From contig NZ_JXMS01000022.1 of assembly GCF_001672295.1 (NCBI RefSeq), forward strand, positions 1-59,828: a DNA stretch of 59,828 nucleotides, given 5' to 3'. The stretch is from Halodesulfovibrio spirochaetisodalis. Lineage in GTDB: Bacteria; Desulfobacterota; Desulfovibrionia; Desulfovibrionales; Desulfovibrionaceae. Below, piece after piece: positions 10,278 through 51,382 of this stretch. Numbering within the stretch: position 1 is the first letter of the stretch; each line of letters opens with the position of its first letter. Made by a program: the position numbers and the translations under genes. A model generated the notes under the pieces. It did not search any database. It worked only from the letters and a program-made list of their open reading frames with translations, and was not told the DNA's origin.

Positions 10278-10462
10278 ACATTGTAGTTATCCACACCACT
10301 CTGTCCGTGAATTCTCAACCCATTCTCACTCGGCATCTGTGGATATCAGGCACGATTTTGCAGACACGGGGTCTTGTCATGCAAAACACACTTCGCAACC
10401 GGTGCGCTTCACGCACTGTTCATGCGTCATATGTCCCCGCCCAATTTTTGGAGGCTTTTGCC

Positions 10463-11359
10463 ATGTTCCACTGTCGTTCCTTACGACTGATGTTTATTGC
10501 TGCCCTTATTCTTACGTTCTCTCTCCCTGCGTTTGCCGGTCACGGACATGAAGATGCTCCTGCTAAAAAAGGTATCCTTCTTGTTGCATTCGGCACCTCT
10601 GTACCAGAAGCCCGTGTTGCTCTGGACAACATTAACGAAGAAGTTGCCAAAGCTTTTCCGGATACTGAAATCCGCTGGGCATACTCCGCAGCAATGATCC
10701 GCAATAAGATCAAGCGGACTGAAAATAAAGTTATCCCATCCCCTGCTGCAGCTCTTGCACAGATGGGCGACGACGGCTTTACTCATGTTGCGGTGCAGTC
10801 TCTGCACACTATTCCTGGGCAAGAATTTTCTGATATTAAAAAAACAGCTTCTGCATTCGATGGTATTCCTAAAAGTATCAGCCACATTTCTGTAGGCACT
10901 CCACTGCTGAATACCCCTGCTGACCTTGCAGCAATGGCAGAAATTCTCCCTGCTACTGTTCCTGCTGCTCGTAAAAAAAATGAAGCAGTCATTTTTATGG
11001 GACATGGCACTCACGATCCAGGCAATATTTACTACCCGGGTCTTGCTACCTATCTTCAAGAAAAAGATTCTAATATCTTTGTGGGAACGGTTGAAGGCTA
11101 CCCTTCTCTCGACAGCATTATTCCTACACTGAAAGCCAAGGGTATTAAAAAGGTATGGCTCATGCCTCTTATGTCCGTTGCGGGTGATCACGCACGCAAT
11201 GACATGGCAGGTTCGGAAGAGGATAGCTGGAAATCCATCCTGACCAAAAAAGGCTTCAAGGTAACAACTGTTCTGAAGGGAACCGGCGAATACGACGCTA
11301 TTGTTGCCCAGTGGGTTGCGCACCTAAAAACTGCATTCAACGCACTTGAGTCTCACTAA
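10463..11359 (+). CDS. cbiK: Periplasmic sirohydrochlorin cobaltochelatase
   Basis: CbiK inserts Co2+ into sirohydrochlorin (cobalt-factor II synthesis) on the anaerobic B12 route. The start is ATG 10463: TGGAGG at 10449-10454 precedes it, and it begins a signal peptide (LMFIAALILTFSLPAFA), followed by mature GHGHEDAP. The upstream in-frame codons from 10307 lie in the leader. Metal-binding/catalytic His motifs are MGHGTHDPG and AGDHARND; LLVAFGTS marks the N-terminal lobe. The exported form matches the CbiK type studied in Desulfovibrio vulgaris, where a periplasmic copy coexists with a cytoplasmic one. It leads a cobalamin-riboswitch operon with a BtuCDF-type importer, which could bring the metallated product or a corrinoid back into the cell; that coupling is inference. 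Confidence 0.93.
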   Translation: MFHCRSLRLMFIAALILTFSLPAFAGHGHEDAPAKKGILLVAFGTSVPEARVALDNINEEVAKAFPDTEIRWAYSAAMIRNKIKRTENKVIPSPAAALAQMGDDGFTHVAVQSLHTIPGQEFSDIKKTASAFDGIPKSISHISVGTPLLNTPADLAAMAEILPATVPAARKKNEAVIFMGHGTHDPGNIYYPGLATYLQEKDSNIFVGTVEGYPSLDSIIPTLKAKGIKKVWLMPLMSVAGDHARNDMAGSEEDSWKSILTKKGFKVTTVLKGTGEYDAIVAQWVAHLKTAFNALESH

Positions 11360-11367
11360 GTAATACG

Positions 11368-12435
11368 ATGACCAGAACAGTAGATATTGCCCGACGCCGC
11401 AAACGGCGCTGTATGCTTTTTTCCGGCATTGCTGCTTTCGGTTGTGCTGTGTCTGCTGTTCTGGCTGCCGGATTCGGCCCGCTTGATATTCCGCTAGGGC
11501 AAGTTCTCCAGACCCTTGCGCAGCACCTTTTCCTGACGCCTGCTTCTGCAGAAACAACCAACGCCATTGTTGTCTGGGAAATACGCTTCAGCAGAATTAT
11601 TCTTTCTCTGCTTATCGGGAGTGGACTGGCTATCTCCGGCACAGTCTTTCAAGGTATCCTGCGCAACCCGCTTGCAGATCCATTTACCATTGGTGTTTCC
11701 AGCGGGGCAGCTTTTGGTGCTTCCGTAGCAATATTTTTCGGACTATCGGGCACTATTCCGTTCCTTACCGGAATCGGCTTTGTTCCTGCTGCTGCTCTTA
11801 CAGGAGCCCTGCTTGCTCTTGCGGCTGTTATCACCCTCGGAAGTATGGGTGGGCAGCTGAAACGCGATGCCCTTGTACTGGCTGGTGTGGTTGTAGCAAC
11901 GTTTCTTGCCGCACTGATTTCTCTTATAAAATCCCTTGATGAAGACTCTGTTGCCTCCATTGTGTTCTGGATAATGGGCAGCCTGCAAGGCAGAAGCTGG
12001 CAGCACGTGCAGCTCATCCTTCCGTGGTATGGATTGGGTCTGGCGATTTTATGGAGATTCTCCCGCGAATTGGACATCCTTTCGCTTGGAGAAATTCAAG
12101 CACAGCAGCTTGGAATGAATGCAAGTCGTGTCCGTTTATGGTTGCTGGTCGGTGCCAGTATGATTACAGGCGCTTCAGTAGCAGTTTCCGGCGTCATCGG
12201 CTTTGTCGGACTTGTAGTTCCGCATCTGGTGCGCATTGTTCAAGGTGGTGAGCACAGGCCATTACTTGTAAGCTCTGCGTTTATCGGTGGGCTGCTTCTA
12301 CTCTGGTCTGATGTTCTTGCGCGTACCATCCTTCCAGAAGGTGCTGAATTACCTGTCGGTGTTGTCACTGCATTATTAGGCGGGCCCTTTTTCTGCCTGC
12401 TTCTGCACCGCTCTATGAAACGGAGCAGTCAATAA
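11368..12435 (+). CDS. BtuC/FecCD-family ABC transporter permease
   Basis: The membrane subunit of a type II importer for corrinoid, haem or siderophore, 355 residues with about ten hydrophobic segments. Family blocks are visible: WEIRFSRIILSLLIGSGLAI, GTVFQGILRNPLADP, the cytoplasmic loop around LDILSLGEIQAQQLG, and ASVAVSGVIGFVGLVVPH with the conserved glycines that contact the ATPase. It begins 8 bases after cbiK, and its stop codon overlaps the start of the ATPase gene (TAATG). The riboswitch and cobI context point to a corrinoid or cobalt-tetrapyrrole rather than an iron siderophore as substrate. Confidence 0.92.
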   Translation: MTRTVDIARRRKRRCMLFSGIAAFGCAVSAVLAAGFGPLDIPLGQVLQTLAQHLFLTPASAETTNAIVVWEIRFSRIILSLLIGSGLAISGTVFQGILRNPLADPFTIGVSSGAAFGASVAIFFGLSGTIPFLTGIGFVPAAALTGALLALAAVITLGSMGGQLKRDALVLAGVVVATFLAALISLIKSLDEDSVASIVFWIMGSLQGRSWQHVQLILPWYGLGLAILWRFSRELDILSLGEIQAQQLGMNASRVRLWLLVGASMITGASVAVSGVIGFVGLVVPHLVRIVQGGEHRPLLVSSAFIGGLLLLWSDVLARTILPEGAELPVGVVTALLGGPFFCLLLHRSMKRSSQ

Positions 12436-13232
12436 TGTCTGCGCACATCAGCATACAAAACCTGTCAGCCGGATATACTGACACTGCGGTTCTTCATGAG
12501 ATTTCCCTGTCGATAGAGCATGGTGAAATGATTGGCCTACTCGGGCCAAACGGTAGTGGTAAAACCACACTGCTTATGTCACTTTCCGGCGTGCGGAAAC
12601 CACTGCTAGGCTCTATTCAACTTAACGATACAAACTTACAGCAGCTTCCACCTAAGAAGCGTGCAGCACAAATTGCTTCTGTCCCGCAGTACACAGGAGA
12701 AACACCGGACATTGAAGCACTGTCACTTGTACTGATGGGGCGCTACCCGTATATATCCACCCTTGGCGGCTACAGTGCAAACGATACAAAGATTGCTCTG
12801 GACTGCATGAAGGAAACAGCTACTGATTCGTTTGCCTACCGATCTGTTCGTGAACTTTCAGGTGGCGAGTTTCAGAGAGTTCTCATTGCCAGAGCGCTGG
12901 CACAGCAAACCAGTACGCTGTTGCTGGATGAAGCAACATCGGGTCTCGACATTGCCCGAACTATAGAAATTTTTGACTTATTGAAACAACGGCATCATGC
13001 GGGAAAAACCGTTATTGCCGCAATTCATGACATCAATCTTGCTGCTCTGTACTGCACCCGACTGATCTTTTTAAAACACGGACGAGTTGCGCTGGATGGA
13101 GCTGTAAAAGACGTTTTTACTGACGAAAACCTGACTGAAATTTATGATACGCCAATCCATACATTCAATCATCCGATCACCAATGCGCCGCAAGCTTTTG
13201 TTACTCCCGGCTCTGTTGCTGGTTCTCGCTAG
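12435..13232 (+). CDS. BtuD/FecE-family ABC transporter ATPase
   Basis: A 265-residue nucleotide-binding subunit. Walker A is GPNGSGKTT, the Q-loop region is ASVPQYTGE, the signature is LSGGEFQRVL, Walker B is TLLLDEATSGLD, and the switch His lies in AAIHDINL. It starts within the stop codon of the permease gene (TAATG), so translation is likely coupled. Its 3' end overlaps the binding-protein gene by about 50 bases. Partner of the preceding permease in the cobalamin-riboswitch operon. Confidence 0.93.
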   Translation: MSAHISIQNLSAGYTDTAVLHEISLSIEHGEMIGLLGPNGSGKTTLLMSLSGVRKPLLGSIQLNDTNLQQLPPKKRAAQIASVPQYTGETPDIEALSLVLMGRYPYISTLGGYSANDTKIALDCMKETATDSFAYRSVRELSGGEFQRVLIARALAQQTSTLLLDEATSGLDIARTIEIFDLLKQRHHAGKTVIAAIHDINLAALYCTRLIFLKHGRVALDGAVKDVFTDENLTEIYDTPIHTFNHPITNAPQAFVTPGSVAGSR

Positions 13233-14121
13233 CCTATTTGGGACTGGAGCAGTCCCAAAAGCCTATGCTGCGCCTGTACAGATCGTCGATGATCTCGGCA
13301 GAACCATCGAGTTACAGCAACCTGCAACCCGAATTATTGCGTTGTACGGTGCGTTTAACGAAATGCTGGCTGAACTTGAGAAGGCCGATACCATAATTGC
13401 CCGTACTAAAGCCGACACACTACCGCCCTCTATTCTCAGCAAGCCATCCATCGGAACACATCTGCGCCCGAATCCTGAGCTAGTTGCGGGGCTTCGACCG
13501 GATATTGTCCTGCAAATGGGAGGTAGAAAAAAAGCTTTGGAATCTGTTCATATGCTTGAACAACTTGGTATTCCTGTTGCGTTTTTTTCCATCACCACAT
13601 TTGAAGAACTTTTTTCAGTTATCAAGCGTCTCGGCACGCTGACCAATGCCGAAGAACAGGCTACTGCCGTATGCACCAGCCTGAAAGCACGGCTTGAACG
13701 TGTTCAACAGCAACTTACAACAATTGAACACAAGCCATCTGTTTTTTTTGAAGTGCGCTATCCGAACCTTCTCGGAGCGGGTAACGCATCGATAGTTAAT
13801 GATATTATTACACATGCTGGTGGCACCAATATTATGGACGCCACTGTAAAATTAGTTCGCATAACCGAAGAGGAAGTCATCAAGCGCAATCCGGAAGTGT
13901 ACCTTATCCAACAAGGTGCCATGAATCCGAATCCGCAACCAATGCAGAACCGCGCCCACTTTCGCACCATCAACGCTGTGAAAAACAATCGCGTCTACAT
14001 TATTGATGAATCCAGCTACTCCCGCCCCGGCCCCCGTGCGGTAACCGCTGTGGAAGAGCTGGCAGCCCTGCTGCACCCGACTCGTATGCAAGCCATTTCC
14101 CATAGTTCAGGAGACAACTAA
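13183..14121 (+). CDS. BtuF-like periplasmic corrinoid/haem-binding protein
   Basis: A solute-binding protein of the helical-backbone type II importer class. The start is ATG 13183 (MRRKLLLL), which opens a signal peptide ending near AVPKAYA; the upstream in-frame ATG 13144 adds a non-signal stretch. The mature protein begins APVQIVDDLGRTIEL, typical of the family, with later RPDIVLQMGG and HAGGTNIMD blocks. The gene overlaps the ATPase gene by 50 bases and has no obvious SD, so translation probably depends on coupling. About 312 residues. The ligand is inferred from the operon to be a cobalt tetrapyrrole; iron-haem or siderophore remains possible. Confidence 0.88.
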   Translation: MRRKLLLLPALLLVLASLFGTGAVPKAYAAPVQIVDDLGRTIELQQPATRIIALYGAFNEMLAELEKADTIIARTKADTLPPSILSKPSIGTHLRPNPELVAGLRPDIVLQMGGRKKALESVHMLEQLGIPVAFFSITTFEELFSVIKRLGTLTNAEEQATAVCTSLKARLERVQQQLTTIEHKPSVFFEVRYPNLLGAGNASIVNDIITHAGGTNIMDATVKLVRITEEEVIKRNPEVYLIQQGAMNPNPQPMQNRAHFRTINAVKNNRVYIIDESSYSRPGPRAVTAVEELAALLHPTRMQAISHSSGDN

Positions 14122-14834
14122 TGTCCGCTTCTACAGGCACACTTTACGGCATCGGGGTTGGTCCCGGTGATCCGGACTTACTTACCATCAAAGCAACAAA
14201 AATATTAGCTAACGTTGATATTGTCCTTGCTGCATCTTCCACTAAAAACGACTACTCCACTGCGCTTTTCATTGCACAACCGCATATGCAAGCTGAAGTA
14301 GAAGTCGTACACCTCGGTTTTCCCATGACCAGAGATGAAAATATTTTACTGAAAGCTTGGGAACATAACGCAAAGATTGTGGCTGATCTTCTTAATCAGG
14401 GAAAAAACTGTGCGTTTCTTACACTGGGCGACCCGCTTATCTACTCAACATTCGGCTACCTCAAGCGCACGCTTGAAGCTCTGGACACAGACTATGCAAT
14501 CTCTGTTGTTCCCGGCATCACATCCTATCAGGCTTCGGCCGCTCGTACCGGAACAATCCTGTGCGAGTCCGGTGAAAACCTGCTGCTTGCATCCGGCGTG
14601 CGAGCCACAGAAGACACCAAAGAGCTTCTGCACAGTGTCGACAACGCTGTTATCCTCAAAACTTATAAGAATTTTTCCGAACTTAAAAATCTTCTCCACG
14701 ACACCAACAGAAAAGATTCAGCGATCTTCATTTCCCGTCTTGGAATGGATGGAGAGATTATTGAACGAAATATCGAAGATGCACCGGAAAAACCGCACTA
14801 CTTCTCACACATGCTTGTACCAGTAAGTAAATAG
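14121..14834 (+). CDS. cbiL: Precorrin-2/cobalt-factor II C20-methyltransferase (CbiL/CobI)
   Basis: A SAM-dependent methyltransferase that adds the C20 methyl in corrin-ring synthesis, acting directly after the cobaltochelatase. The 237-residue sequence has the tetrapyrrole methylase N-motif YGIGVGPGDPDLLTIKA, the LTLGDPLIYSTF block and VVPGITSYQASAA. The SD AGGAG precedes ATG 14121, which overlaps the last base of the upstream stop codon. With cbiK heading the operon, the cobalt-early (anaerobic) pathway is implied, so CbiL is preferred over CobI. The rest of the pathway is not in the window. Confidence 0.93.
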   Translation: MSASTGTLYGIGVGPGDPDLLTIKATKILANVDIVLAASSTKNDYSTALFIAQPHMQAEVEVVHLGFPMTRDENILLKAWEHNAKIVADLLNQGKNCAFLTLGDPLIYSTFGYLKRTLEALDTDYAISVVPGITSYQASAARTGTILCESGENLLLASGVRATEDTKELLHSVDNAVILKTYKNFSELKNLLHDTNRKDSAIFISRLGMDGEIIERNIEDAPEKPHYFSHMLVPVSK

Positions 14835-42752: not shown

Positions 42753-43298
42753 CTACACCGTGAACTGCTGCTCTTCTTGTAACTTCCGGCCTTCGTCCAT
42801 AATTCGGGAAATCAATATCACCATAAGCCCCACCACAACCAGTGAGATATTTGCATCATCTACACTGATAGAAATAAAGCGTTGCCCCTGTGGATTAGTA
42901 AAACTCAAAATTACAGATTGCAATGCCCCCTGTGGCAGCGAGAGAGCCTGCTGTACTATTAAGCCGATCCCAATAGCTCTATAGCATGCAACATTATCAA
43001 CACCGAAGAATTCTCCACGACTATACAATGCAAATAATCTGGAAAGCATTCGAAGCACATACATTATCGCACCGCCAGTCAACATTGACGCTCCGAAACA
43101 AGCTATCCGCTGCCAAGTCGTAACAGGTTGGATAGTATGCCCGCGCAAAATAGATTCAGCCAATCCAAAGTTTGACCAACTGCCAGTGTCTGAAAAGTCA
43201 CTCCACAGCCAGAGGCACAGCATCAGAATCGGATAGGCATAAAAGAACACTCGGAATAACAAGGCAAACCTTTTACTCGGCTTGGTGATGGTAGTCAT
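42753..43298 (-). CDS. DUF2975 membrane protein
   Basis: About 181 residues with four hydrophobic segments. The start is ATG 43298 (MTTITKPSKR), preceded by AGGAGAAG; an upstream in-frame ATG at 43343 lacks an SD. The LFALYSRGEFFGVDNVACYRA block and the overall layout fit DUF2975. Function is unknown; it forms a two-gene unit with the HTH protein and is divergent from the GAK cassette. Confidence 0.82.
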   Translation of the reverse strand: MTTITKPSKRFALLFRVFFYAYPILMLCLWLWSDFSDTGSWSNFGLAESILRGHTIQPVTTWQRIACFGASMLTGGAIMYVLRMLSRLFALYSRGEFFGVDNVACYRAIGIGLIVQQALSLPQGALQSVILSFTNPQGQRFISISVDDANISLVVVGLMVILISRIMDEGRKLQEEQQFTV

Positions 43299-43335
43299 GC
43301 AGCTTCTCCTAATTATTGATCGATGTTTTTTATTG

Positions 43336-43364
43336 TTAAACAATCATTTATTGCTGTTTGTCAA
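43336..43364 (-). promoter_or_regulatory. Candidate promoter of the DUF2975-HTH pair
   Basis: On the minus strand, TTGACA (43364-43359), a 17-base spacer, GTTTAA (43341-43336). The -10 overlaps a short dyad (TTGTTAAACAA), a possible site for the HTH protein. Confidence 0.5.
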
Positions 43365-43517
43365 TAATTATATCGGAGACGCATTCTCACTTGGCTCTCC
43401 TTCGCACAATGCTCTCGAATCATATTCCGCTGATAACTAATTTTCTTATTTGACCAAGCCACTAAGTCATGCTTTTCTAATAGCTCATCCCTATTCCTTT
43501 GACACACAGGAGTCCTT

Positions 43518-44048
43518 ATGGCTGAGAAACTTATACGCACAATCACAAGGGGCGAACTGCCTAATTTTTTACGTGACTTAGCAGATGCATGTGAAAACGC
43601 ATCGGTACAAGATTTTCCAGACTGCACAAATGCAAAGAAGATTCGTCTATCCGTAAAAGACGAGTACGGGCAACTCACCGTTAAACTAAAAATGAGTGCA
43701 CACATTGATGAATGCGAACTATGTGAAGATTGCGAATGCGGTGGAATCAGACCGGACGGGCTTCCGCGATACAAGCGCCTGAAAAAACGCATGGCAACAA
43801 GCTTTAAAGTCATATTTAAAGCTCTCCATCAACAGACAGTTCCACCCGAAGAAGCAGTGCTCGACTTCATTGCTGACTCACGCCTCATGACAAAGTATCC
43901 CGGAAAGGGTGATCCGTTGTACGCAGAGTATGACAAACTCACAGATATACTTGAAGAAGCATGGCACACTAAGGACTTACAAAAATTCCACGAAACCGTG
44001 GACGCACTGAACCATATGAAAACAGAATGTCATCATAAATATAAATAG
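43518..44048 (+). CDS. GAK system XXXCH protein
   Basis: A 176-residue cytoplasmic protein, first gene of the GAK cassette. The C-terminus ends in TECHHKYK: a lone Cys-His (171-172) where a cytochrome c'-type CxxCH would sit, the feature after which the family is named. Residues 1-60 resemble the amphi-Trp proteins of the same operon (MAEK... with a helix, then the strands KKIRLSV and GQLTVKLKM). A four-cysteine cluster follows at 66, 69, 72 and 74 (CELCEDCEC), then a helical domain (about 85-176). There is no signal peptide, so a covalent c-type haem is unlikely; metal or haem b binding is possible. The SD is CAGGAG. Function unknown. Confidence 0.85.
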   Translation: MAEKLIRTITRGELPNFLRDLADACENASVQDFPDCTNAKKIRLSVKDEYGQLTVKLKMSAHIDECELCEDCECGGIRPDGLPRYKRLKKRMATSFKVIFKALHQQTVPPEEAVLDFIADSRLMTKYPGKGDPLYAEYDKLTDILEEAWHTKDLQKFHETVDALNHMKTECHHKYK

Positions 44049-44071
44049 CTCATGCGGTCAGGGGGAACGCC

Positions 44072-45241
44072 ATGAAGTTCACTGTTGAGCAGGAAAAAGA
44101 ACATGCTAAGCTGGTAGAAAAGCTCCGCGGCTATTCAGAAGACATAACGAAAAAAGATCATGCTATTTTTTCAAAAATTGTCTCGGATAAACTCGATAAA
44201 TGGCAGATCAATCAGGTTCTTACTCCTTCTGAAATTTATCCGCGCCAGCAGTATGTTATCGCCACCCACTGGCACCCTGAATTTGTTCCTATGGAACTCA
44301 ATCAACAGCGCATTGAAACCATGTTTCCCAACCGCAAAGATGAACTCATTATCCCCACTCAGCATAATGAACTCATGTCCTACGGCCCCTATACAGGTGC
44401 TGAAGTGGACTGCTACGCAAGCGGTTTTGACGAAAAGGTACAGCTACTGATCCACTTTGAAACAGAGCGACTGCAAGATAACGACACCATGCTGCGCTCC
44501 ATGCTTGCACACACCCGTAAGTATCGCTCAAGCCAGCTCTTTGATTTCATTCACTCATTCACAAAACCGATTGATGAAAGATTGCATGCTGCAGCTAAAA
44601 AAACCGGTGTTGAACCTAGCGCCGTTAAATTTGCCTGCATTGTAGTAGGCAAAATAGAGCAACTTCTTAACGAGCATTGGGACAGTGTGCCGGAATTTTC
44701 CATGCGCAATAAACTAATCCGTAACTACATTGACGCACTGCGCCCTGAATTCGGCCACCGCTTCATTGATCGGGTTCAGACCTTTGTGCAGGAAGTGAAA
44801 AAGATAGTGAAACTCAGCTTTCCACTGGAGTATTTCTATCGCGCTTCGGAGATTATAGAAGAAACACGACACCTTGGTGGCTCAATCATCATTCCTCATC
44901 CCGAACAATTCTGGCCAATTCTTCTCGGCAGATATGATGTGGACGGGTATGAGGTATGGAACCCGCAATCAAACAGATACACTGAGTTTCTTATAGATGT
45001 GGTAAACGAGCACAATAAATACCGCAAAAGCTCCAGCAAACAGTTACTCATCCTCATGGGAGATGATTGTCATCAAGGGGAAAAAACGCGCAGAAAAGAT
45101 GAGCAAGATCCAGAAAAAACAGGAAGGGAAATCGGCTTACAGCCTGCGTGGGATGACCTGAATATTCAAAAAAAGCTCATACGGGGTGGCGTTACCCGTC
45201 AAGGCATCATTGAGGAATACCGGAACAGACTCTCTGGATAA
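44072..45241 (+). CDS. PHP-like metal-dependent hydrolase of the GAK cassette
   Basis: A 389-residue protein; I do not know a name for it. It has spaced metal-ligand-like motifs reminiscent of a PHP phosphoesterase: THWHPE (His66, His68), HPEQFWP (His276), DGYEVWN (291-297) and GDDCHQGEK (Asp331, Asp332, His334). A helical insertion lies between about 140 and 250. Hydrolysis of a phosphoester would suit an operon with three kinase or ATP-grasp enzymes, but this is inference from motifs. GGGGGAA precedes ATG 44072, 23 bases after the XXXCH gene. Confidence 0.6.
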   Translation: MKFTVEQEKEHAKLVEKLRGYSEDITKKDHAIFSKIVSDKLDKWQINQVLTPSEIYPRQQYVIATHWHPEFVPMELNQQRIETMFPNRKDELIIPTQHNELMSYGPYTGAEVDCYASGFDEKVQLLIHFETERLQDNDTMLRSMLAHTRKYRSSQLFDFIHSFTKPIDERLHAAAKKTGVEPSAVKFACIVVGKIEQLLNEHWDSVPEFSMRNKLIRNYIDALRPEFGHRFIDRVQTFVQEVKKIVKLSFPLEYFYRASEIIEETRHLGGSIIIPHPEQFWPILLGRYDVDGYEVWNPQSNRYTEFLIDVVNEHNKYRKSSSKQLLILMGDDCHQGEKTRRKDEQDPEKTGREIGLQPAWDDLNIQKKLIRGGVTRQGIIEEYRNRLSG

Positions 45242-45265
45242 AGCTGAAAAAACACAGGAACCGGC

Positions 45266-45538
45266 ATGGCAGAACATAAATTTTCGTTCGAATCCTTGCA
45301 GGATACTTCATCTATTGTCGAACTGCTGGAATCGATTACGCAAGGGTTTAAAGACGGCTCAATTGCTCTTGCTTCTCAGCAGGACTCTATTACCCTTACC
45401 CCGAAGGGGTTGTTGAGTTTTGCCATCAAAGCAAAGCAGAAGAACGGAGAAAGCAGGCTCGTATTGCGAATTCGCTGGAAGGATCAAACTCCTGACCAGC
45501 ATTCGCCTTCCGGAACACTGTATATCGGCAGCGAATAA
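45266..45538 (+). CDS. amphi-Trp domain protein
   Basis: A 90-residue protein made only of the amphi-Trp domain: an N-terminal helix (SSIVELLESITQGFKDGSIA), a strand (DSITLTPKG), then alternating strands LLSFAIKAKQ and RLVLRIRWK with the signature Trp71. The family is known from cassettes with HprK-related kinases; the biochemical role is not established. It could be the acceptor that the neighbouring kinases or ATP-grasp enzyme modify. AGGAA precedes ATG 45266. Confidence 0.85.
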   Translation: MAEHKFSFESLQDTSSIVELLESITQGFKDGSIALASQQDSITLTPKGLLSFAIKAKQKNGESRLVLRIRWKDQTPDQHSPSGTLYIGSE

Positions 45539-45540
45539 GC

Positions 45541-47184
45541 ATGGCATCGTTCAAGGCTCTGCACGAACATTTTACCTTCCTGCTGCTCGAAGTGCAGGCA
45601 CAGGTACAGGCAACGCAGGATTTTTTACTGCGACCTACCCGTGTGCTCAAAAAGCAGCTGGCGCTGCGCTGTGACAAAACAGCCAATATGCAGGCCGTAA
45701 TAGAGACCATGTGCTATTCGGAATTAAACTCAGCGCAGGCTCTGCCACAAAGCCAAATCAATAAACTGCGGGCACTGCAAAAAATGGCAATACACCTGCA
45801 CTATATTTCAGAATTTTGCATAAATATTTCCAAGCAGACTCAATACCTTTCCAAAGAAAGCAGGCTTGATCCTGATGACTTCATGCCTTTTTTTGCAGAC
45901 ATCACTCAAGCCATCAATCTTGTTAAGCCATCACTTGATGAGGGCGACCTTTCCAAGGCGTTGCGCATATGCCGTGCTGAATACACACTGGATGAGAAAT
46001 ACAGACATGTATTTTCACGCCTTACACGGGAGATAAATGCCGGTACCGAAGCCTCAGGTCACGTCACTGCCATATTTATCTACCGGTACCTTGAGCGCAT
46101 TGGGGACTCTCTCCAACGCATAGGAGAAGCGCTCATATTTATTACTGTCGGGAATATTCTTAAAGTATCTCAGTTTGACTCTCTCCAGCAGACTCTTACC
46201 CAATCCGGCTTCACCGGCTCTATGCATGATGTTGACTATAAAGCCATACTTGGCAGCCGCTCCGGCTGTTCTGTTGGAGTAGTGGAGACAGTTGCTCCTT
46301 TTCATGAGCCAGCACGTCAAGGTTCCATCTATAAAGAAGGTTCTCTGGAAAAAATACGGCAGGAAAAAGATAATATTGAACGGTGGCAGCATGTCTTTCC
46401 TTCGCTTGTGCCTGCAATTTACGGATACCATGAAAGTTCGGACAATGCTGCGTTGCTTATTGAACTACTTCAGGGCTGCACTCTGGACGAAGTCATCCTG
46501 CAAGGAGAACAGTTTCTTGTTGATAGCGCATTGACTGTCCTGCAAAACACATTACGCAACGTCTGGGATGCTACAAAAACACAATCACCTGTGAACACAA
46601 ACTACATCCAGCAACTCACAAGCCGTCTTTCACCTGTACTGCAAGTCCACCCTGCCTCTCTGCGTGACTCTCTTTCCGTCGGCAGTGTAACAACTCACTC
46701 CACAGAAGAGCTGCTCAACCAGTGCTCACACCTTGAAAAAACGCTCTCAGCACCATTCTCCGTCCTTATTCACGGTGATCTCAATATGAACAACATTGTA
46801 TACAATCAACAGCTTCAAACTGTACGTTTCATCGATTTGTACCGTTCCAGAGAGTTTGATTATCTGCAGGATGTTTCCGTTTTCCTTGTCTCAATATTCC
46901 GCATCCCTGTTTTTGAACCACAGATACGGGACAGACTGAACCGGACTACCGACCAGTTTTATTCATTCGCACGAAAAGTTGCATCTGATTACAACGACGC
47001 CACCTTTGAAGCTCGCTTAGCCTTTGCCCTCGCCCGCTCTTTCTATACCTCAACACGCTTTGAGCTTAACAGCAGCTTTGCAAAACGCATGTATCTACGT
47101 GCCCACTTTCTCATGGAAAAATTGCTCGAACACTCGGGCGGATGGGCAACATTCACATTACCGGAAGATATTTTACTGTATTAA
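45541..47184 (+). CDS. PhoU-like/aminoglycoside-phosphotransferase-like fusion kinase
   Basis: A 547-residue two-part protein. The N-terminal third (about 1-205) is all-helical and contains YRYLERIGDSLQRIGEA, a PhoU-type signature. The C-terminal part (about 240-520) is an APH/choline-kinase-like domain with the catalytic IHGDLNMNNIV (His411, Asp413) and the metal-binding FIDLYRSREFDYLQD. It is probably a small-molecule or protein kinase whose substrate is unknown, with the PhoU part perhaps sensing phosphate or metal clusters. It begins 3 bases after the amphi-Trp gene with no strong SD, so translation is coupled. Confidence 0.75.
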   Translation: MASFKALHEHFTFLLLEVQAQVQATQDFLLRPTRVLKKQLALRCDKTANMQAVIETMCYSELNSAQALPQSQINKLRALQKMAIHLHYISEFCINISKQTQYLSKESRLDPDDFMPFFADITQAINLVKPSLDEGDLSKALRICRAEYTLDEKYRHVFSRLTREINAGTEASGHVTAIFIYRYLERIGDSLQRIGEALIFITVGNILKVSQFDSLQQTLTQSGFTGSMHDVDYKAILGSRSGCSVGVVETVAPFHEPARQGSIYKEGSLEKIRQEKDNIERWQHVFPSLVPAIYGYHESSDNAALLIELLQGCTLDEVILQGEQFLVDSALTVLQNTLRNVWDATKTQSPVNTNYIQQLTSRLSPVLQVHPASLRDSLSVGSVTTHSTEELLNQCSHLEKTLSAPFSVLIHGDLNMNNIVYNQQLQTVRFIDLYRSREFDYLQDVSVFLVSIFRIPVFEPQIRDRLNRTTDQFYSFARKVASDYNDATFEARLAFALARSFYTSTRFELNSSFAKRMYLRAHFLMEKLLEHSGGWATFTLPEDILLY

Positions 47185-47200
47185 CATGGGGTGAGACCAC

Positions 47201-48070
47201 ATGAAAATAGGCGTTGTAGGAACTCCAAGTGGATGGTCGTCTGAACGACTGGCGGACACCGTAGCCAGAACAACCGGCTACCGGCTGCTTATCAACATGA
47301 AAGAAATTCGTCTTGATCTGGGACAGAAAGCCTGCTGGTTTGAAGGAACGAACCTGATGTCTCTGGACGCCCTTATCGTTAAAAAAGTCGGGGCTCGCTA
47401 TTCATCTGCGTTACTGAACAGGCTGGAACTCTTACGGGTTATGAATGAACACGGACTGCCTGTCTTTTCAAAACCGTCCAGCATGATCGCTGTCCTCAAT
47501 CGGCTTTCCTGCACTGCCACTCTGCAACAGGCAAACATCCCTATGCCCCCCACAACGCTTACTGAAAACATAGACGAAGCACTCGAAGCAATAAAACAGT
47601 ACGGTACAGCTGTTCTCAAACCGCTCTACTCATCCAAAGGACGCGGTATGGTTATTGTTTCCGACACCAAAGATGCACACAAAACTGTTCGTGAATATGC
47701 CAGTGTTTTTCCCATGATGTACATTCAAAAAGCCATCGACCTGAAGGAAGATAAAGACCTTGGTGTTGTCTTCATACAGGGGAAATACCTTACCACGTAT
47801 GCCCGCTGCAAAGGCAATTCGTGGAACACGACCACAACCTCAGGCGGCTATTACGAAAAGTATACACCATCGATAGAAATCATAGAGCTTGCCCGTAAGG
47901 CGCAGCACCCGTTTAAACTGGACTTTACCTGCGTTGATGTTGCCATCACATCTGAAGGCCCTGTTGTTTTTGAAGTCTCTGCATTTGGTGGATTTAAAGG
48001 AATTCTTCAGGCTCAGGGCATAGATGCGGCACAACTCTATGTTGATGCAGTTATGAAGGAGCTTTCATGA
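47201..48070 (+). CDS. GAK system ATP-grasp enzyme (RimK-like)
   Basis: A 289-residue ATP-grasp ligase. Visible blocks are an N-terminal Rossmann-like MKIGVVGTPSGWSSERL, the ATP-binding TAVLKPLYSSKGRGM, FIQGKYLTTYAR, and the metal-binding C-terminal end GPVVFEVSAFGGFKG, similar to RimK/glutathione-synthetase enzymes that join an amine to a carboxylate. The substrate is unknown. GGGGTGAG precedes ATG 47201, and the stop overlaps the next start by four bases (ATGA), so ligase and kinase are likely made in fixed ratio. Confidence 0.9.
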   Translation: MKIGVVGTPSGWSSERLADTVARTTGYRLLINMKEIRLDLGQKACWFEGTNLMSLDALIVKKVGARYSSALLNRLELLRVMNEHGLPVFSKPSSMIAVLNRLSCTATLQQANIPMPPTTLTENIDEALEAIKQYGTAVLKPLYSSKGRGMVIVSDTKDAHKTVREYASVFPMMYIQKAIDLKEDKDLGVVFIQGKYLTTYARCKGNSWNTTTTSGGYYEKYTPSIEIIELARKAQHPFKLDFTCVDVAITSEGPVVFEVSAFGGFKGILQAQGIDAAQLYVDAVMKELS

Positions 48071-49164
48071 ATATAAAAAAATATACAGGCTTTTTTTCTG
48101 TTCTTCATGCAGTTCATGAAAGCTATCCGGCAACGTACCAGTTCCAAATTGCATTCAATAACTTTGTACTCAATGTCTTTGTAAACAACGCACTACTTGC
48201 AGCAACGTTGATTCACTATTTTTCCGAGTTCATTGTTCTGAACCCACAGCAACATGTTAATTCAACAGTAACGGTTCACGATACCCCGCCACTCAACTTT
48301 CCCTATCAATACAAAACAGCACTGCCTTCTGCTCCGCACAAACTCCCTAAACACGAATGGATTGATCTTCCAGACGGGCGTATTGTGCGCCACAAACGTA
48401 CAAACATGCACTACATCATCGCTGACGGCTACAACTGTATAGCCGGCTCCTGCGTTCAGTACAAAAATCAGGTCGTAAACTTCATCAACAGCAGATTTAT
48501 TAATCGGCAGGTAGACAGCGGGTATTTACTTGGGCATGCAGCCGCTGTGACATTAAACGGGCGAGGGGTCATCATAAGCGGTAACTCCGGTGCCGGAAAA
48601 TCTACACTGGCATTGCATATGCTCACCAGCGGGGCTGATTTCGTCAGTAACGACAGAGTTCTTATGCACCCGAGCGGCCAAAACCCGTTTTACGGCACAC
48701 TGCAGCAGCCAAGAATCAACCCGGGGACAGCGCTGAACAACCCGAAGCTTGAGCAGATTCTTTCACCGCAGGAACGTATGGAATTTGGCAAAATGCGTCC
48801 TGAATCGTTATGGCAGCTGGAGCATAAATACGATGTACTTATTCCTGAGTGTTATGATGCCCACAGATTTATTCCCCATGCACCGCTCAGTGGCGCTGTC
48901 ATTATAGACTGGTGCCGCAATACAGAGCCAATGGTTATTGAAGAATATGCAGCACAGGAAGCAAGACCGTATCTTGCCCATATGATGAAGAAAAACGACC
49001 TGCTGTATCTGCCGAAGAATAAAGAGTATACAGACCCTGTACTCAGTGATTATATACAGGCGCTTCATGACAAGCCTGTGTTTGTTATACGCGGCGGTGT
49101 AAACTTTGCTGAAGCAACAAAAAAACTTATGAACTTCCTGAATACAGGACATACAAGCGTGTAA
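48067..49164 (+). CDS. HprK-related kinase B (GAK system)
   Basis: A 365-residue kinase with the P-loop ISGNSGAGKSTLALHM at about 170-185 and a following SNDRVLM block, the arrangement of HPr kinase/phosphorylase and PckA-like folds. GHAAAVTLNGRGV just upstream completes the HprK-like core. The long N-terminal region (1-150) has no recognised domain. No HPr or PTS gene is nearby, so the target is probably within the cassette. It overlaps the ATP-grasp gene by four bases. Confidence 0.9.
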   Translation: MNIKKYTGFFSVLHAVHESYPATYQFQIAFNNFVLNVFVNNALLAATLIHYFSEFIVLNPQQHVNSTVTVHDTPPLNFPYQYKTALPSAPHKLPKHEWIDLPDGRIVRHKRTNMHYIIADGYNCIAGSCVQYKNQVVNFINSRFINRQVDSGYLLGHAAAVTLNGRGVIISGNSGAGKSTLALHMLTSGADFVSNDRVLMHPSGQNPFYGTLQQPRINPGTALNNPKLEQILSPQERMEFGKMRPESLWQLEHKYDVLIPECYDAHRFIPHAPLSGAVIIDWCRNTEPMVIEEYAAQEARPYLAHMMKKNDLLYLPKNKEYTDPVLSDYIQALHDKPVFVIRGGVNFAEATKKLMNFLNTGHTSV

Positions 49165-49170
49165 TCCGTA

Positions 49171-50364
49171 ATGCCTACCATCGAAATAACAAGAAGGGTA
49201 AACGTACCCGACCCGCTGAAAATTGAACGCTACCGTACTGCACCGCAGAACGGCCCCCGCGTTCTATTCTTCAGTGGTGGTACTGCATTACAGGGAGTTT
49301 CCCGCGATATTATCAAATATACACACAACTCCGTGCACCTGATTACGCCCTTTGATTCAGGAGGAAGTTCGGCCGTCCTGCGGGATGAATTTTCCATGCC
49401 TGCAGTGGGAGACATCCGCAACCGCCTTATGTCTCTTGCTGATGATTCTGTTCTGGGCAACCCGGAAATTTATGCATTTTTCACCCACCGCCTGAATACT
49501 GAAGCTTCTCAGCAAGAGCTGCGCACTGAGCTTGCTGAACTTGCCGAAGGAACACATCCGCTTATTCTTGCGGTGCCATACCCTATGCGCAAGCTCATCC
49601 AGACCAGCATGATTTCTATCCGCAATCATATTTCCGATGCATTTGACCTGCGCGGTGCCAGTCTTGGGAATCTGGTTTTAGCAGCCGGATATCTCGACAA
49701 CGGGCGACAGCTCGCCCCTGTCATCTACCTCTTTTCAAAACTTGCTGAAGTACGCGGTACTGTGCGTCCTATTGCCAATGTGACAGCACAACTTGCTGTA
49801 TCTCTCGCCAATGGTGAAAACATTATTGGCCAGCATCGTATTACCGGCAAAGAAACAGCCCCGCTTACCACTAAAATTGACTCCATCTGGCTTGCCGAAT
49901 CTCAGCAATCCTCCGAGCCTGTTTCCGTCTCCATCAGCGACCGCACAAGCGCACTCATCAACGAGGCGGAACTCATTTGCTACCCTATGGGCAGCTTCTA
50001 CTCCAGCGTTATAGCCAACCTGCTTCCCTCTGGTGTAGGAGAGAGTATCGCCCGTACAAAATGCCCTAAGGTGTTTATTCCCAACACAGGAACAGACGCT
50101 GAAGTTGTCGGGCATACCCTTACAGAACAAATTGAAACCCTTCTTTTCCATCTGAAAAAAGACGCTCCATCCACTATTGCCACGAGCGACGTGCTTAATC
50201 TTATCGTGATTGATTCCGATGCAACGCGGTATAATGGCTCTCTGAACCATGATATGCTGTCGCGCGAAGGCATTACTGTGGTATCCTGTGACTTGATCAC
50301 AAACCAAAGCTCACCATACATAGACGCCGCAGTGCTGAACCGGATTCTCTTATCTCTCTGCTAG
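49171..50364 (+). CDS. GAK system CofD-like protein
   Basis: A 397-residue protein of the CofD/YvcK fold: VLFFSGGTALQGVSR at about 31-45 is the nucleotide/substrate loop, and ITPFDSGGSSAVLRDEF then PAVGDIRNRLMSLAD match the family. CofD transfers phospholactyl groups in F420 synthesis and YvcK binds UDP-sugars; neither role can be assumed here. It may transfer a phosphorylated group to a carrier. It starts 6 bases after the kinase gene. Confidence 0.88.
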   Translation: MPTIEITRRVNVPDPLKIERYRTAPQNGPRVLFFSGGTALQGVSRDIIKYTHNSVHLITPFDSGGSSAVLRDEFSMPAVGDIRNRLMSLADDSVLGNPEIYAFFTHRLNTEASQQELRTELAELAEGTHPLILAVPYPMRKLIQTSMISIRNHISDAFDLRGASLGNLVLAAGYLDNGRQLAPVIYLFSKLAEVRGTVRPIANVTAQLAVSLANGENIIGQHRITGKETAPLTTKIDSIWLAESQQSSEPVSVSISDRTSALINEAELICYPMGSFYSSVIANLLPSGVGESIARTKCPKVFIPNTGTDAEVVGHTLTEQIETLLFHLKKDAPSTIATSDVLNLIVIDSDATRYNGSLNHDMLSREGITVVSCDLITNQSSPYIDAAVLNRILLSLC

Positions 50365-50388
50365 CACTTGCGGCTGGAGGAGAGACAC

Positions 50389-51315
50389 ATGGAAAAGAAA
50401 AAAATCCACATTTCCGACACGATCCCCTGCAAACTTGCAGTGTCACATATCGACTGTTTTCTGGATGGCCTGCGCAGTGGTGCAGTCGTCATTGAAGAAG
50501 GTGACAAAAAGATCATCCTGCATCCTCATTCCGAAGTAAAAATGGATATCGAGGCAAAAGCTAAAAAAGACAAACAGCGCCTTGTTATCACCTTGGAATG
50601 GTGCGCACCTGAGGCATGCCAACGCATCCATCACGAGACACACACCCCGCACGCCCAAGAGCACGGGGGAAACGGCAAAATGCTGGCTCACCATCATCGC
50701 GGTGGACACCATCATGACGAAGAATATGACGGGCACCACAGCGGGCACCATCAAGAACCTCCTCATAAACTTGATGAACACGGATTCCATTCCCACCACC
50801 ATTGTCACGGCAAGGGTGAACACCAGCTATGCCACACCCACGAACATGCAGAAGGACATCACGAACACCAACAGCAGACCGGATGCTGTGAGGATATTGA
50901 ACATGAAGCACATGAAGGATGCTGTTCTGAGCATAACTATGGTCGAGCACCGCATTGGGACGAAGTTCCCGAACACGGTCATCATGGCTGCTGCGAAGGA
51001 AAGAAGCATTCACCGCATAAAGGTTGCTGTTCCGAGCATGATTATGGAATGAACATCGAGGAGCATGGGCGTAGAAACAGAGGACAAATGAAGGCAGAGC
51101 GCGCTGAAATTTTAGGAGAAACACTCCACGGCAACGGCTACAAAATCTGGCACAAAGGCCACTCAGCGTACTTTGATCACAAACATCACCCTCCGTATGC
51201 AACGCATAAAATGTTCCACGGAACACAGACACACCACAAACCACGAGGAAAAGGGGAAAACTACCACCGCAAAAGCCACACCAGTGTTCCTCCACGCCCC
51301 GAGAAGACCACCTAG
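50389..51315 (+). CDS. amphi-Trp domain fused to a His/Cys-rich metal-binding tail
   Basis: The last gene of the cassette, about 308 residues. The start is ATG 50389, with GGAGGAGA just upstream; an upstream TTG at 50368 is in frame but overlaps the SD. Residues 1-70 form an amphi-Trp domain (strands AVVIEEGDKKIILH and RLVITLEW). The rest is dominated by His, with many HHxH clusters, and contains a duplicated Cys unit: TGCCEDIEHEAHEGCCSEH and HGCCEGKKHSPHKGCCSEH, each followed by xYG. Binding of several Ni, Zn, Co or Cu ions is expected. No signal peptide, so it is cytosolic. It ties the GAK cassette to metal handling, though this is inference. Confidence 0.8.
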   Translation: MEKKKIHISDTIPCKLAVSHIDCFLDGLRSGAVVIEEGDKKIILHPHSEVKMDIEAKAKKDKQRLVITLEWCAPEACQRIHHETHTPHAQEHGGNGKMLAHHHRGGHHHDEEYDGHHSGHHQEPPHKLDEHGFHSHHHCHGKGEHQLCHTHEHAEGHHEHQQQTGCCEDIEHEAHEGCCSEHNYGRAPHWDEVPEHGHHGCCEGKKHSPHKGCCSEHDYGMNIEEHGRRNRGQMKAERAEILGETLHGNGYKIWHKGHSAYFDHKHHPPYATHKMFHGTQTHHKPRGKGENYHRKSHTSVPPRPEKTT

Positions 51316-51326
51316 AACATCAATAA

Positions 51327-51357
51327 AAAAAGCTCCCTGCATAACAGGGAGCTTTTT
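51327..51357 (+). terminator. Terminator of the GAK operon
   Basis: AGCTCCCT, loop GCATAAC, AGGGAGCT, flanked by A-run and T-run (so it works in both directions). It ends the eight-gene operon and also faces the convergent permease gene. Confidence 0.93.
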
Positions 51358-51382
51358 CATTATCTACTGGCAGAGCAGCCAA

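Follow-up and report, generated by a model that had tools for sequence, protein, structure and literature searches.

The GAK cassette of Halodesulfovibrio spirochaetisodalis and its relatives: a redefined gene core and a candidate link to the Pho regulon

Introduction

What does the gene cassette catalogued in NCBIfam as the GAK system do, and which of its genes define it? Both questions are raised by a 59,828-nucleotide stretch of Halodesulfovibrio spirochaetisodalis DNA (contig NZ_JXMS01000022.1; hereafter the window), in which eight genes at positions 43518-51315 make up a probable operon of this type. The cassette is already named in NCBIfam, and as a multi-gene system it seems otherwise to be known only as family names. 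A preliminary description of the operon took a CofD-like gene to belong to the GAK set proper and regarded the genes for a PHP-like hydrolase, a PhoU-APH fusion kinase and a His-rich protein as extensions of it. Comparison of gene content among relatives shows instead a stable core of PHP, PhoU-APH, ATP-grasp and HprK-B genes, together with amphi-Trp proteins, to which CofD is accessory. That description also missed a link with phosphate limitation, suggested by promoters and by neighbouring genes. With a little more confidence than doubt, we read the cassette as a cytoplasmic module under Pho control that would make and break a phosphorylated, possibly pyrophosphorylated, conjugate and thereby signal or buffer phosphate status.

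In the literature searched the terms 'GAK system', 'amphi-Trp' and 'HprK-related kinase' were not found, and papers retrieved with 'XXXCH' concern, by their titles, cytochrome maturation and phage topics. Listings of papers on CofD, ATP-grasp, PhoU, the Pho regulon, HprK, RimK and YvcK held nothing recognisable as the cassette, and in such listings we likewise did not find the redefined core, the gamma version or the Pho link described below.

Results

Gene content of the cassette was compared in 100 records, assembled from a starting alignment of 19 CofD_rel_GAK proteins and consisting of the window, 80 named loci with flanks of up to 10 kb and 19 stretches from the same phylum; the named loci are the top 80 among at least 573 relatives, a choice that favours close ones. 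Genes in the relatives were called by a simple codon-usage script, which leaves several start codons uncertain. Five families, PHP, PhoU-APH, ATP-grasp, HprK-B and XXXCH, served to sort the records: one with three or more of these was counted as a cassette (64 records), and as CofD-only if CofD was accompanied by at most one of them in the fetched stretch (31 records, 13 of which are shorter than 15 kb); five records are neither, and two pairs of contigs are duplicates (L037/L119 and L038/L107). CofD, ATP-grasp and PhoU-APH each occur in 63 of the 64 cassettes, as do amphi-Trp genes, with HprK-B in 60, PHP in 52 and XXXCH in 35. Within the 55 delta-type cassettes PHP is present in 52, and the usual order there is XXXCH, PHP, amphi-Trp, PhoU-APH, ATP-grasp, HprK-B, CofD, amphi-Trp. 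The PHP and PhoU-APH genes can thus no longer be regarded as extensions, and the preliminary expectation that three extra genes would accompany other cassettes holds for these two and fails for the His-rich gene, which is nearly absent elsewhere.

A survey of 247 genomes from this phylum, among them the one that contains the window, gave a similar picture (limits: curated cut-off for CofD, 1e-20 for PHP, 1e-40 for PhoU-APH, 1e-10 for HprK-B and 1e-60 for ATP-grasp). PHP and ATP-grasp were each found in 17 genomes, PhoU-APH in 18 and HprK-B in 16, and 19 genomes had a CofD over its cut-off. All 14 of the ATP-grasp genomes that are at least 90% complete contain PHP and PhoU-APH. HprK-B is present in 13 of them, G118 being the exception, and CofD in 12, the exceptions being G040 and G118; the broken CofD of G046, which falls below the cut-off, is scored as present. 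Conversely, seven of the 19 genomes with an over-cut-off CofD have no ATP-grasp match (G161 and six genomes from a single related genus), and ATP-grasp was found in none of 19 CofD genomes chosen because no PhoU-APH had been found in them. This co-occurrence in near-complete genomes, together with CofD standing without ATP-grasp, leads us to place PHP and PhoU-APH in the core and to treat CofD, which the preliminary description had counted as a core gene, as optional; being missing in some ATP-grasp genomes and solitary elsewhere, CofD is not diagnostic of the cassette. The partition has loose ends: three genomes (G218, G219 and G241) hold PHP without an ATP-grasp match, two of them with PhoU-APH, and PhoU-APH lies elsewhere in the genome for 11 of the 23 searched genomes behind CofD-only loci.

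Solitary CofD_rel_GAK genes over the cut-off, with no ATP-grasp match in the genome, are exemplified by loci L044-L049 and by genomes G076, G109, G138, G165, G190 and G235, and the one in L045 adjoins an mnmE-like sequence; to call such proteins 'GAK system CofD-like', as NCBIfam does, is misleading. In G213 the cassette is split between two contigs, L036 (G213:C74) carrying ATP-grasp, HprK-B, peroxiredoxin, pta, ackA and CofD, and L131 (G213:C101) carrying XXXCH, PHP, amphi-Trp, PhoU-APH and a second HprK-B. In G219, PHP and PhoU-APH stand beside an acetate kinase gene (L134:6750-11381), and genome searches gave no HprK-B, ATP-grasp or CofD match. Five cassette stretches (L040, L041, L057, L067 and L083) share a neighbour cluster whose sampled member, from L041, is an EAL-CBS-GGDEF protein, a possible link to cyclic-di-GMP.

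Nine cassettes depart from the delta type: they combine PhoU-APH, ATP-grasp and HprK-B, without PHP, with a metallophosphoesterase and a histidine phosphatase, and they stand opposite a divergent CofD. Both hydrolases are present in all nine, a count that is partly definitional since carriage of either cluster defines this gamma type; seven also have a SixA-NUDIX fusion and five a further NUDIX enzyme, and none has XXXCH. By their record titles eight come from Halomonas, Onishia, Marinobacterium or Zhongshania and one from 'Proteobacteria'. PHP was not found at E<=1e-5 in any of 13 genomes of gamma-type or related PhoU-APH-bearing loci, with two of two delta controls positive. Domain identities here, as for the neighbouring genes below, were checked on sampled members: the one SixA-NUDIX fusion tested has a NUDIX half with matches to Ap4A hydrolases and weaker ones to DIPP1; the metallophosphoesterase gives a weak match to ApaH, and the histidine phosphatase has no PDB match at E<=1e-4. 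We read the gamma type as one phosphohydrolase arm swapped for another, and take this as a sign that removing phosphate from a common product may be central to the cassette.

The link to phosphate limitation comes chiefly from promoters, and the promoter test bears most of its weight. PhoB sites are direct repeats, according to a study of PhoB targets in D. vulgaris (PMC3333781), and we scored pairs of CTGTCAT-like heptamers at set spacings in the 250 bases 5' of transcription units. One unit per record was taken, the one richest in core genes, so that some cassette 'promoters' may be internal. At a spacing of 11 the mean score was 8.64 for 59 non-redundant cassette upstream regions (of 61) and 7.88 for 411 control units (rank test p=5.5e-8). 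A score of at least 9.4, a threshold chosen after the scores were seen and of which the rank test is independent, was reached by 20/59 cassettes and 19/411 controls (p=5e-10), as well as by 26 of 66 Pho-associated units, a set comprising pst, phoU, olsF and glycosyltransferase units and broad ABC, regulator and kinase clusters. The excess is seen also in cassettes with no Pho-associated cluster in the locus (8/28 at 9.4 or above, p=1e-4) and in those with a same-strand upstream gene (11/38, p=7e-6), and among spacings 7-16 the signal is strong at 11 alone, the rank test giving none at p<0.05 for spacings 7-10, 12 and 15. PhoB-box-like direct repeats spaced by 11 occur upstream of many members across the cassette family.

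Neighbouring genes point the same way. Near the 64 cassettes we find PstS (6), PstC/A (5), solo PhoU (4), an OlsF-like protein (8; sampled members score 403 bits, below the cut-off of 620) and a group-1 glycosyltransferase (12). Counted together, and leaving out the broad families of clusters c7, c8 and c21, these genes mark 18/64 cassettes and 1/31 CofD-only loci (p=0.003), or 17/63 and 1/30 (p=0.005) once duplicate contigs are removed, and 14/63 and 1/30 (p=0.016) if the glycosyltransferase is also dropped. Of ten OmpR-type regulators sampled, nine have PhoB as their best match, below cut-off. Pst, PhoR, OlsF and the glycosyltransferase Agt matter in phosphate limitation in D. alaskensis G20, as PMC5193443 describes. 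Cassette genes are not recognisable in Table 1 of PMC5193443, nor are they named in passages of PMC3333781.

In the window the cassette appears as eight intact open reading frames, head-to-tail on the forward strand and free of internal stops, as first described. A divergent gene (42753-43343, minus strand) bounds them on the 5' side, and on the 3' side a 15-bp hairpin at 51326-51358, an apparent terminator as previously proposed, precedes a convergent gene; the eight genes make up a putative operon, a delta-type GAK cassette by its gene families. The upstream intergenic region (43344-43517, forward strand) has best PhoB-box-like scores of 8.9 and 8.4, the latter for AAGTCATGCTTTTCTAAT at -54, which aligns with a 9.4-scoring repeat in locus L075, where the best score is 9.7. 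Six of the genes account for all five NCBIfam GAK families (TIGR04354-TIGR04358), each over its curated cut-off and at this single locus, in agreement with the earlier assignment. The rpoC gene (TIGR02386, 38234-42421) precedes the cassette, and as a homologous gene does so in L051 and L075, the location is common to this group.

The first gene (43518-44048) encodes a 176-residue XXXCH protein (TIGR04358, 96 bits, cut-off 40), with a predicted local distance difference test (pLDDT) score of 88.3 for its AlphaFold2 model. Its N-terminal beta-alpha-beta-beta part, followed by four helices, is read from the model as amphi-Trp-like, and it terminates in ...ECHHKYK. Despite low identity elsewhere, all 37 open reading frames of the family end exactly four residues past (C/S)H. 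A haem-binding role resembling cytochrome c' or b562 was considered and rejected: CXXCH occurs in 0/37, the predicted structure has no Foldseek match at E<=0.001, and resemblances such as 6r6m, BRIL and yiiS are insignificant.

The second gene (44072-45241, 389 residues), part of the core, is silent in family searches (no Pfam or NCBIfam match at E<=0.1, no PDB match by sequence profile), although it is highly conserved, with 45-79% identity to 23 of 41 named relatives. Its AlphaFold model (pLDDT 90.5) nevertheless matches PHP phosphoesterases (3e0f, E 6e-6; 3o0f, E 1e-5), RNase AM (9etk, E 2e-4) and 2yb1 with bound Mn and AMP (E 5e-3). The TM-scores are 0.38-0.41 when normalised to the query length and 0.50-0.54 when normalised to that of the target, and on these grounds we call it PHP-like, as the preliminary description had done. 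The predicted PHP fold is accompanied by conserved motifs of the types HWHPE, PHPEQFW and GDD.H, whose His and Asp residues we take to be the PHP metal-binding motifs, and a helical stretch at about residues 139-250 of the model is read as an insert.

Next come a 90-residue amphi-Trp protein (45266-45538; 63 bits, cut-off 31), in which S10 and Q12 are at least 90% conserved over 28 sequences, and the core PhoU-APH fusion (45541-47184, 547 residues). For amphi-Trp no significant solved relative was found, the matches listed (E >=0.016) being taken as chance. The fusion, which bears out the preliminary assignment, has a PhoU part at residues 5-206 (57 bits, over the Pfam PhoU cut-off and below the equivalog cut-off of 130) and an APH-type kinase part at about 267-452 (35 bits, below cut-off) with the motifs YKEG, HGDLNMNN and FID intact and conserved in a 25-sequence alignment. 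PhoU-type helical repeats carry LERIGD-type motifs, of which one of two is changed in the window protein, and these motifs are degenerate in the gamma-type proteins.

The ATP-grasp gene (47201-48070, 289 residues; grasp_GAK 413 bits, cut-off 300) has RimK/LysX profile matches, with the S6--glutamate ligase RimK among its closest solved relatives. RimK-type enzymes have the metal motif E-x-N, at which position 26/26 aligned sequences read E-x-S. It overlaps by four bases (ATGA, 48067-48070) the gene for HprK-related kinase B (48067-49164, 365 residues; HprK_rel_B 350 bits, cut-off 200), in which the P-loop GNSGAGKST, the SNDR motif and the catalytic Asp are intact, and the match to HPr kinase is limited to some 60 residues. 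The accessory seventh gene (49171-50364, 397 residues; CofD_rel_GAK 535 bits, cut-off 340), apart from the other cassette genes in some genomes, contains a CofD Pfam domain; beyond that, NCBIfam yields a single match, to YvcK at a sub-cut-off 115 bits, and of five PDB matches none is named CofD and two are named UPF0052, structures that are presumably YvcK relatives.

The last gene (50389-51315) encodes an amphi-Trp domain (43 bits) with a His/Cys-rich tail, 308 residues of which 56 are His. It probably starts at ATG 50389, with GGAGGAG just before it, rather than at TTG 50368; the junction with the CofD gene is then 24 bases, not the three previously given, whereas the four-base junction reported between ATP-grasp and HprK-B stands. 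The L075 counterpart has 45 His in 276 residues.

Elsewhere in the window, positions 10307-14834 hold a corrinoid-type cluster of a CbiK-like chelatase, BtuC/BtuD-like transporter, substrate-binding protein and precorrin-2 methyltransferase.

Discussion

How could these parts work together? PhoU domains are regulators of phosphate signalling, and APH-type kinases transfer phosphate to hydroxyl groups. Enzymes of the RimK/MptN kind attach amino acids through amide bonds, and phosphate esters and anhydrides are hydrolysed by members of the PHP and NUDIX families. Given these family functions and the Pho link, a make-and-break cycle is the most economical reading. In such a cycle low phosphate would cause PhoB to turn the cassette on, and the PhoU domain would gate its attached kinase by phosphate or metal status. 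Both kinases would act on one common substrate, either a small metabolite or a group on the amphi-Trp/XXXCH proteins, to which the RimK/MptN-like ligase may add an amino acid. The phosphate would be removed again by PHP in the deltas and by histidine phosphatase, metallophosphoesterase, SixA-NUDIX and NUDIX enzymes in the gammas. The chemistry, that is the substrate and the direction of every step, is our inference, and conservation of motif residues in alignments of PHP, ATP-grasp, HprK-B and PhoU-APH is consistent with it. The general idea of a pathway handling a phosphorylated group, already put forward in the preliminary description, appears right. Taken together, promoters, neighbours and family functions make a Pho-linked make-and-break module marginally the better bet.

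Several observations weigh against this conclusion. More than half of the cassette upstream regions (39/59) lie under the threshold, itself set after the event; weaker excesses appear at spacings 13, 14 and 16 (p 0.003-0.03) and, for spacing 11, also on the reverse strand (p=0.0005), and CofD-alone units gave no PhoB-box signal in the promoter test. In the window itself the promoter has no clear box, its best score of 8.9 being equalled or exceeded in about 27% of 60 shuffles, and the pstS gene of the same genome reaches 8.2 only. The genome's phoB gene (best NCBIfam match PhoB at 257 bits, below the cut-off of 296, and adjoining pstB) has, unlike the cassette promoter, a good box at 10.4. The window cassette adjoins rpoC and not pst genes. 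The difference in neighbouring genes is also a modest one: it stands at 16/52 against 1/18 (p=0.026) when records shorter than 15 kb are set aside.

The alternative that survives best, though we think it distinctly the less likely, is protein modification, in essence the model of the preliminary description, in which HprK-B and PhoU-APH would phosphorylate and the RimK-like ligase extend acceptors of the amphi-Trp and XXXCH type, the fixed XXXCH C-terminus being the ligase target. HPr kinase phosphorylates protein serine, and the target of RimK is the C-terminus of S6; the relationship of the cassette ligase to RimK, the invariant ending in 37/37 XXXCH proteins, the near-constant presence of amphi-Trp genes and the conserved S10 and Q12 all suit such a scheme. 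The XXXCH C-terminus is also the best hint that the conjugate of the make-and-break cycle might be protein-bound. However, XXXCH is found in 35/64 cassettes and 0/9 gamma-type ones, amphi-Trp proteins occur without GAK (a Haloferax control was positive for amphi-Trp and negative for ATP-grasp), and the NUDIX and Ap4A-hydrolase-like enzymes of the gammas better suit a soluble phospho-metabolite.

A coenzyme tail seems improbable. Here CofD-like transfer followed by MptN/CofF-like glutamylation would build a phosphodiester-glutamate tail of the F420 or methanopterin kind, as might be expected from the CofD Pfam domain of gene 7 and from the best non-self NCBIfam match of the grasp_GAK gene, MptN at 157 bits (CofF, 40 bits). 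Yet YvcK, not a CofD family, is gene 7's only other NCBIfam match, and none of the five PDB matches bears the name CofD; two of the 14 near-complete genomes with ATP-grasp also lack the gene, and in other genomes it stands alone. Such YvcK-likeness and dispensability weaken an F420-like pathway, which would besides leave the Pho link unexplained.

We are similarly sceptical of a passenger or general-stress module, located in some Pho neighbourhoods and partly driven by PhoB but acting elsewhere, on carbon and acetyl-phosphate balance or the cell envelope. The placement of PHP and PhoU-APH by ackA in G219, and of ATP-grasp/HprK-B and CofD around peroxiredoxin-pta-ackA in G213, would fit, as would the part that GlmR/YvcK plays in Bacillus in the flow of carbon towards the cell wall (PMC6171935); the acetate link is nevertheless confined to two loci, whereas the Pho link recurs across several groups. 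A metal-handling operon with the His/Cys-rich protein as its working part, and with it the metal link proposed in the preliminary description, is very hard to credit: for all the 56 His of the last protein, the tail was seen in the window and L075 only among the 100 records, the 120 other amphi-Trp genes called there having at most 6.1% His, and we reject metal handling as a property of the system.

The system occurs in sulfate reducers, halomonads and other bacteria, and its Pho placement, redefined core and second hydrolase version make its function testable by deletions and metabolomics. Should the make-and-break cycle be true, it would be an undescribed bacterial way to register or ration phosphate. 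A more specific form of it, for which we hold out little expectation, is a PhoB-controlled messenger of phosphate status, a pyrophosphorylated conjugate made by the PhoU-gated kinase, HprK-B and ATP-grasp and destroyed by PHP in deltas or by SixA-NUDIX, ApaH-like and histidine phosphatases in gammas.

The cassette can be compared with several known systems. With the NCBIfam GAK set it shares all five families, over cut-off in the window operon, but that set omits PHP and PhoU-APH, whose co-occurrence with ATP-grasp is no less faithful than that of CofD. With the Pho regulon many cassette relatives share neighbouring genes and 11-bp PhoB-type repeats. The yvcI-yvcJ-yvcK-crh operon of B. subtilis combines a YvcK/CofD-like protein, NUDIX and HprK-type kinase logic much as the gamma cassette does, but is not known to include ATP-grasp, PhoU kinase or PHP. 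Gene 2 resembles PHP phosphoesterases (3e0f, RNase AM 9etk, and 2yb1 with Mn, AMP and phosphate) in predicted fold, at a TM-score of about 0.5 by target length, and in its His/Asp motifs, and differs from them in lacking a sequence-profile match in PDB, Pfam or NCBIfam and in its helical stretch at about 139-250. Finally, whilst the cassette ATP-grasp is RimK-like and the Pfam scan of the window protein lists no inositol-kinase family, the gamma cassette, like the inositol-pyrophosphate enzymes PPIP5K and DIPP, joins ATP-grasp, histidine phosphatases and NUDIX (Ap4A hydrolase and, more weakly, DIPP1), and a messenger cycle, if true, would make the cassette a bacterial counterpart, in logic and not in ancestry, of inositol-pyrophosphate phosphate signalling.

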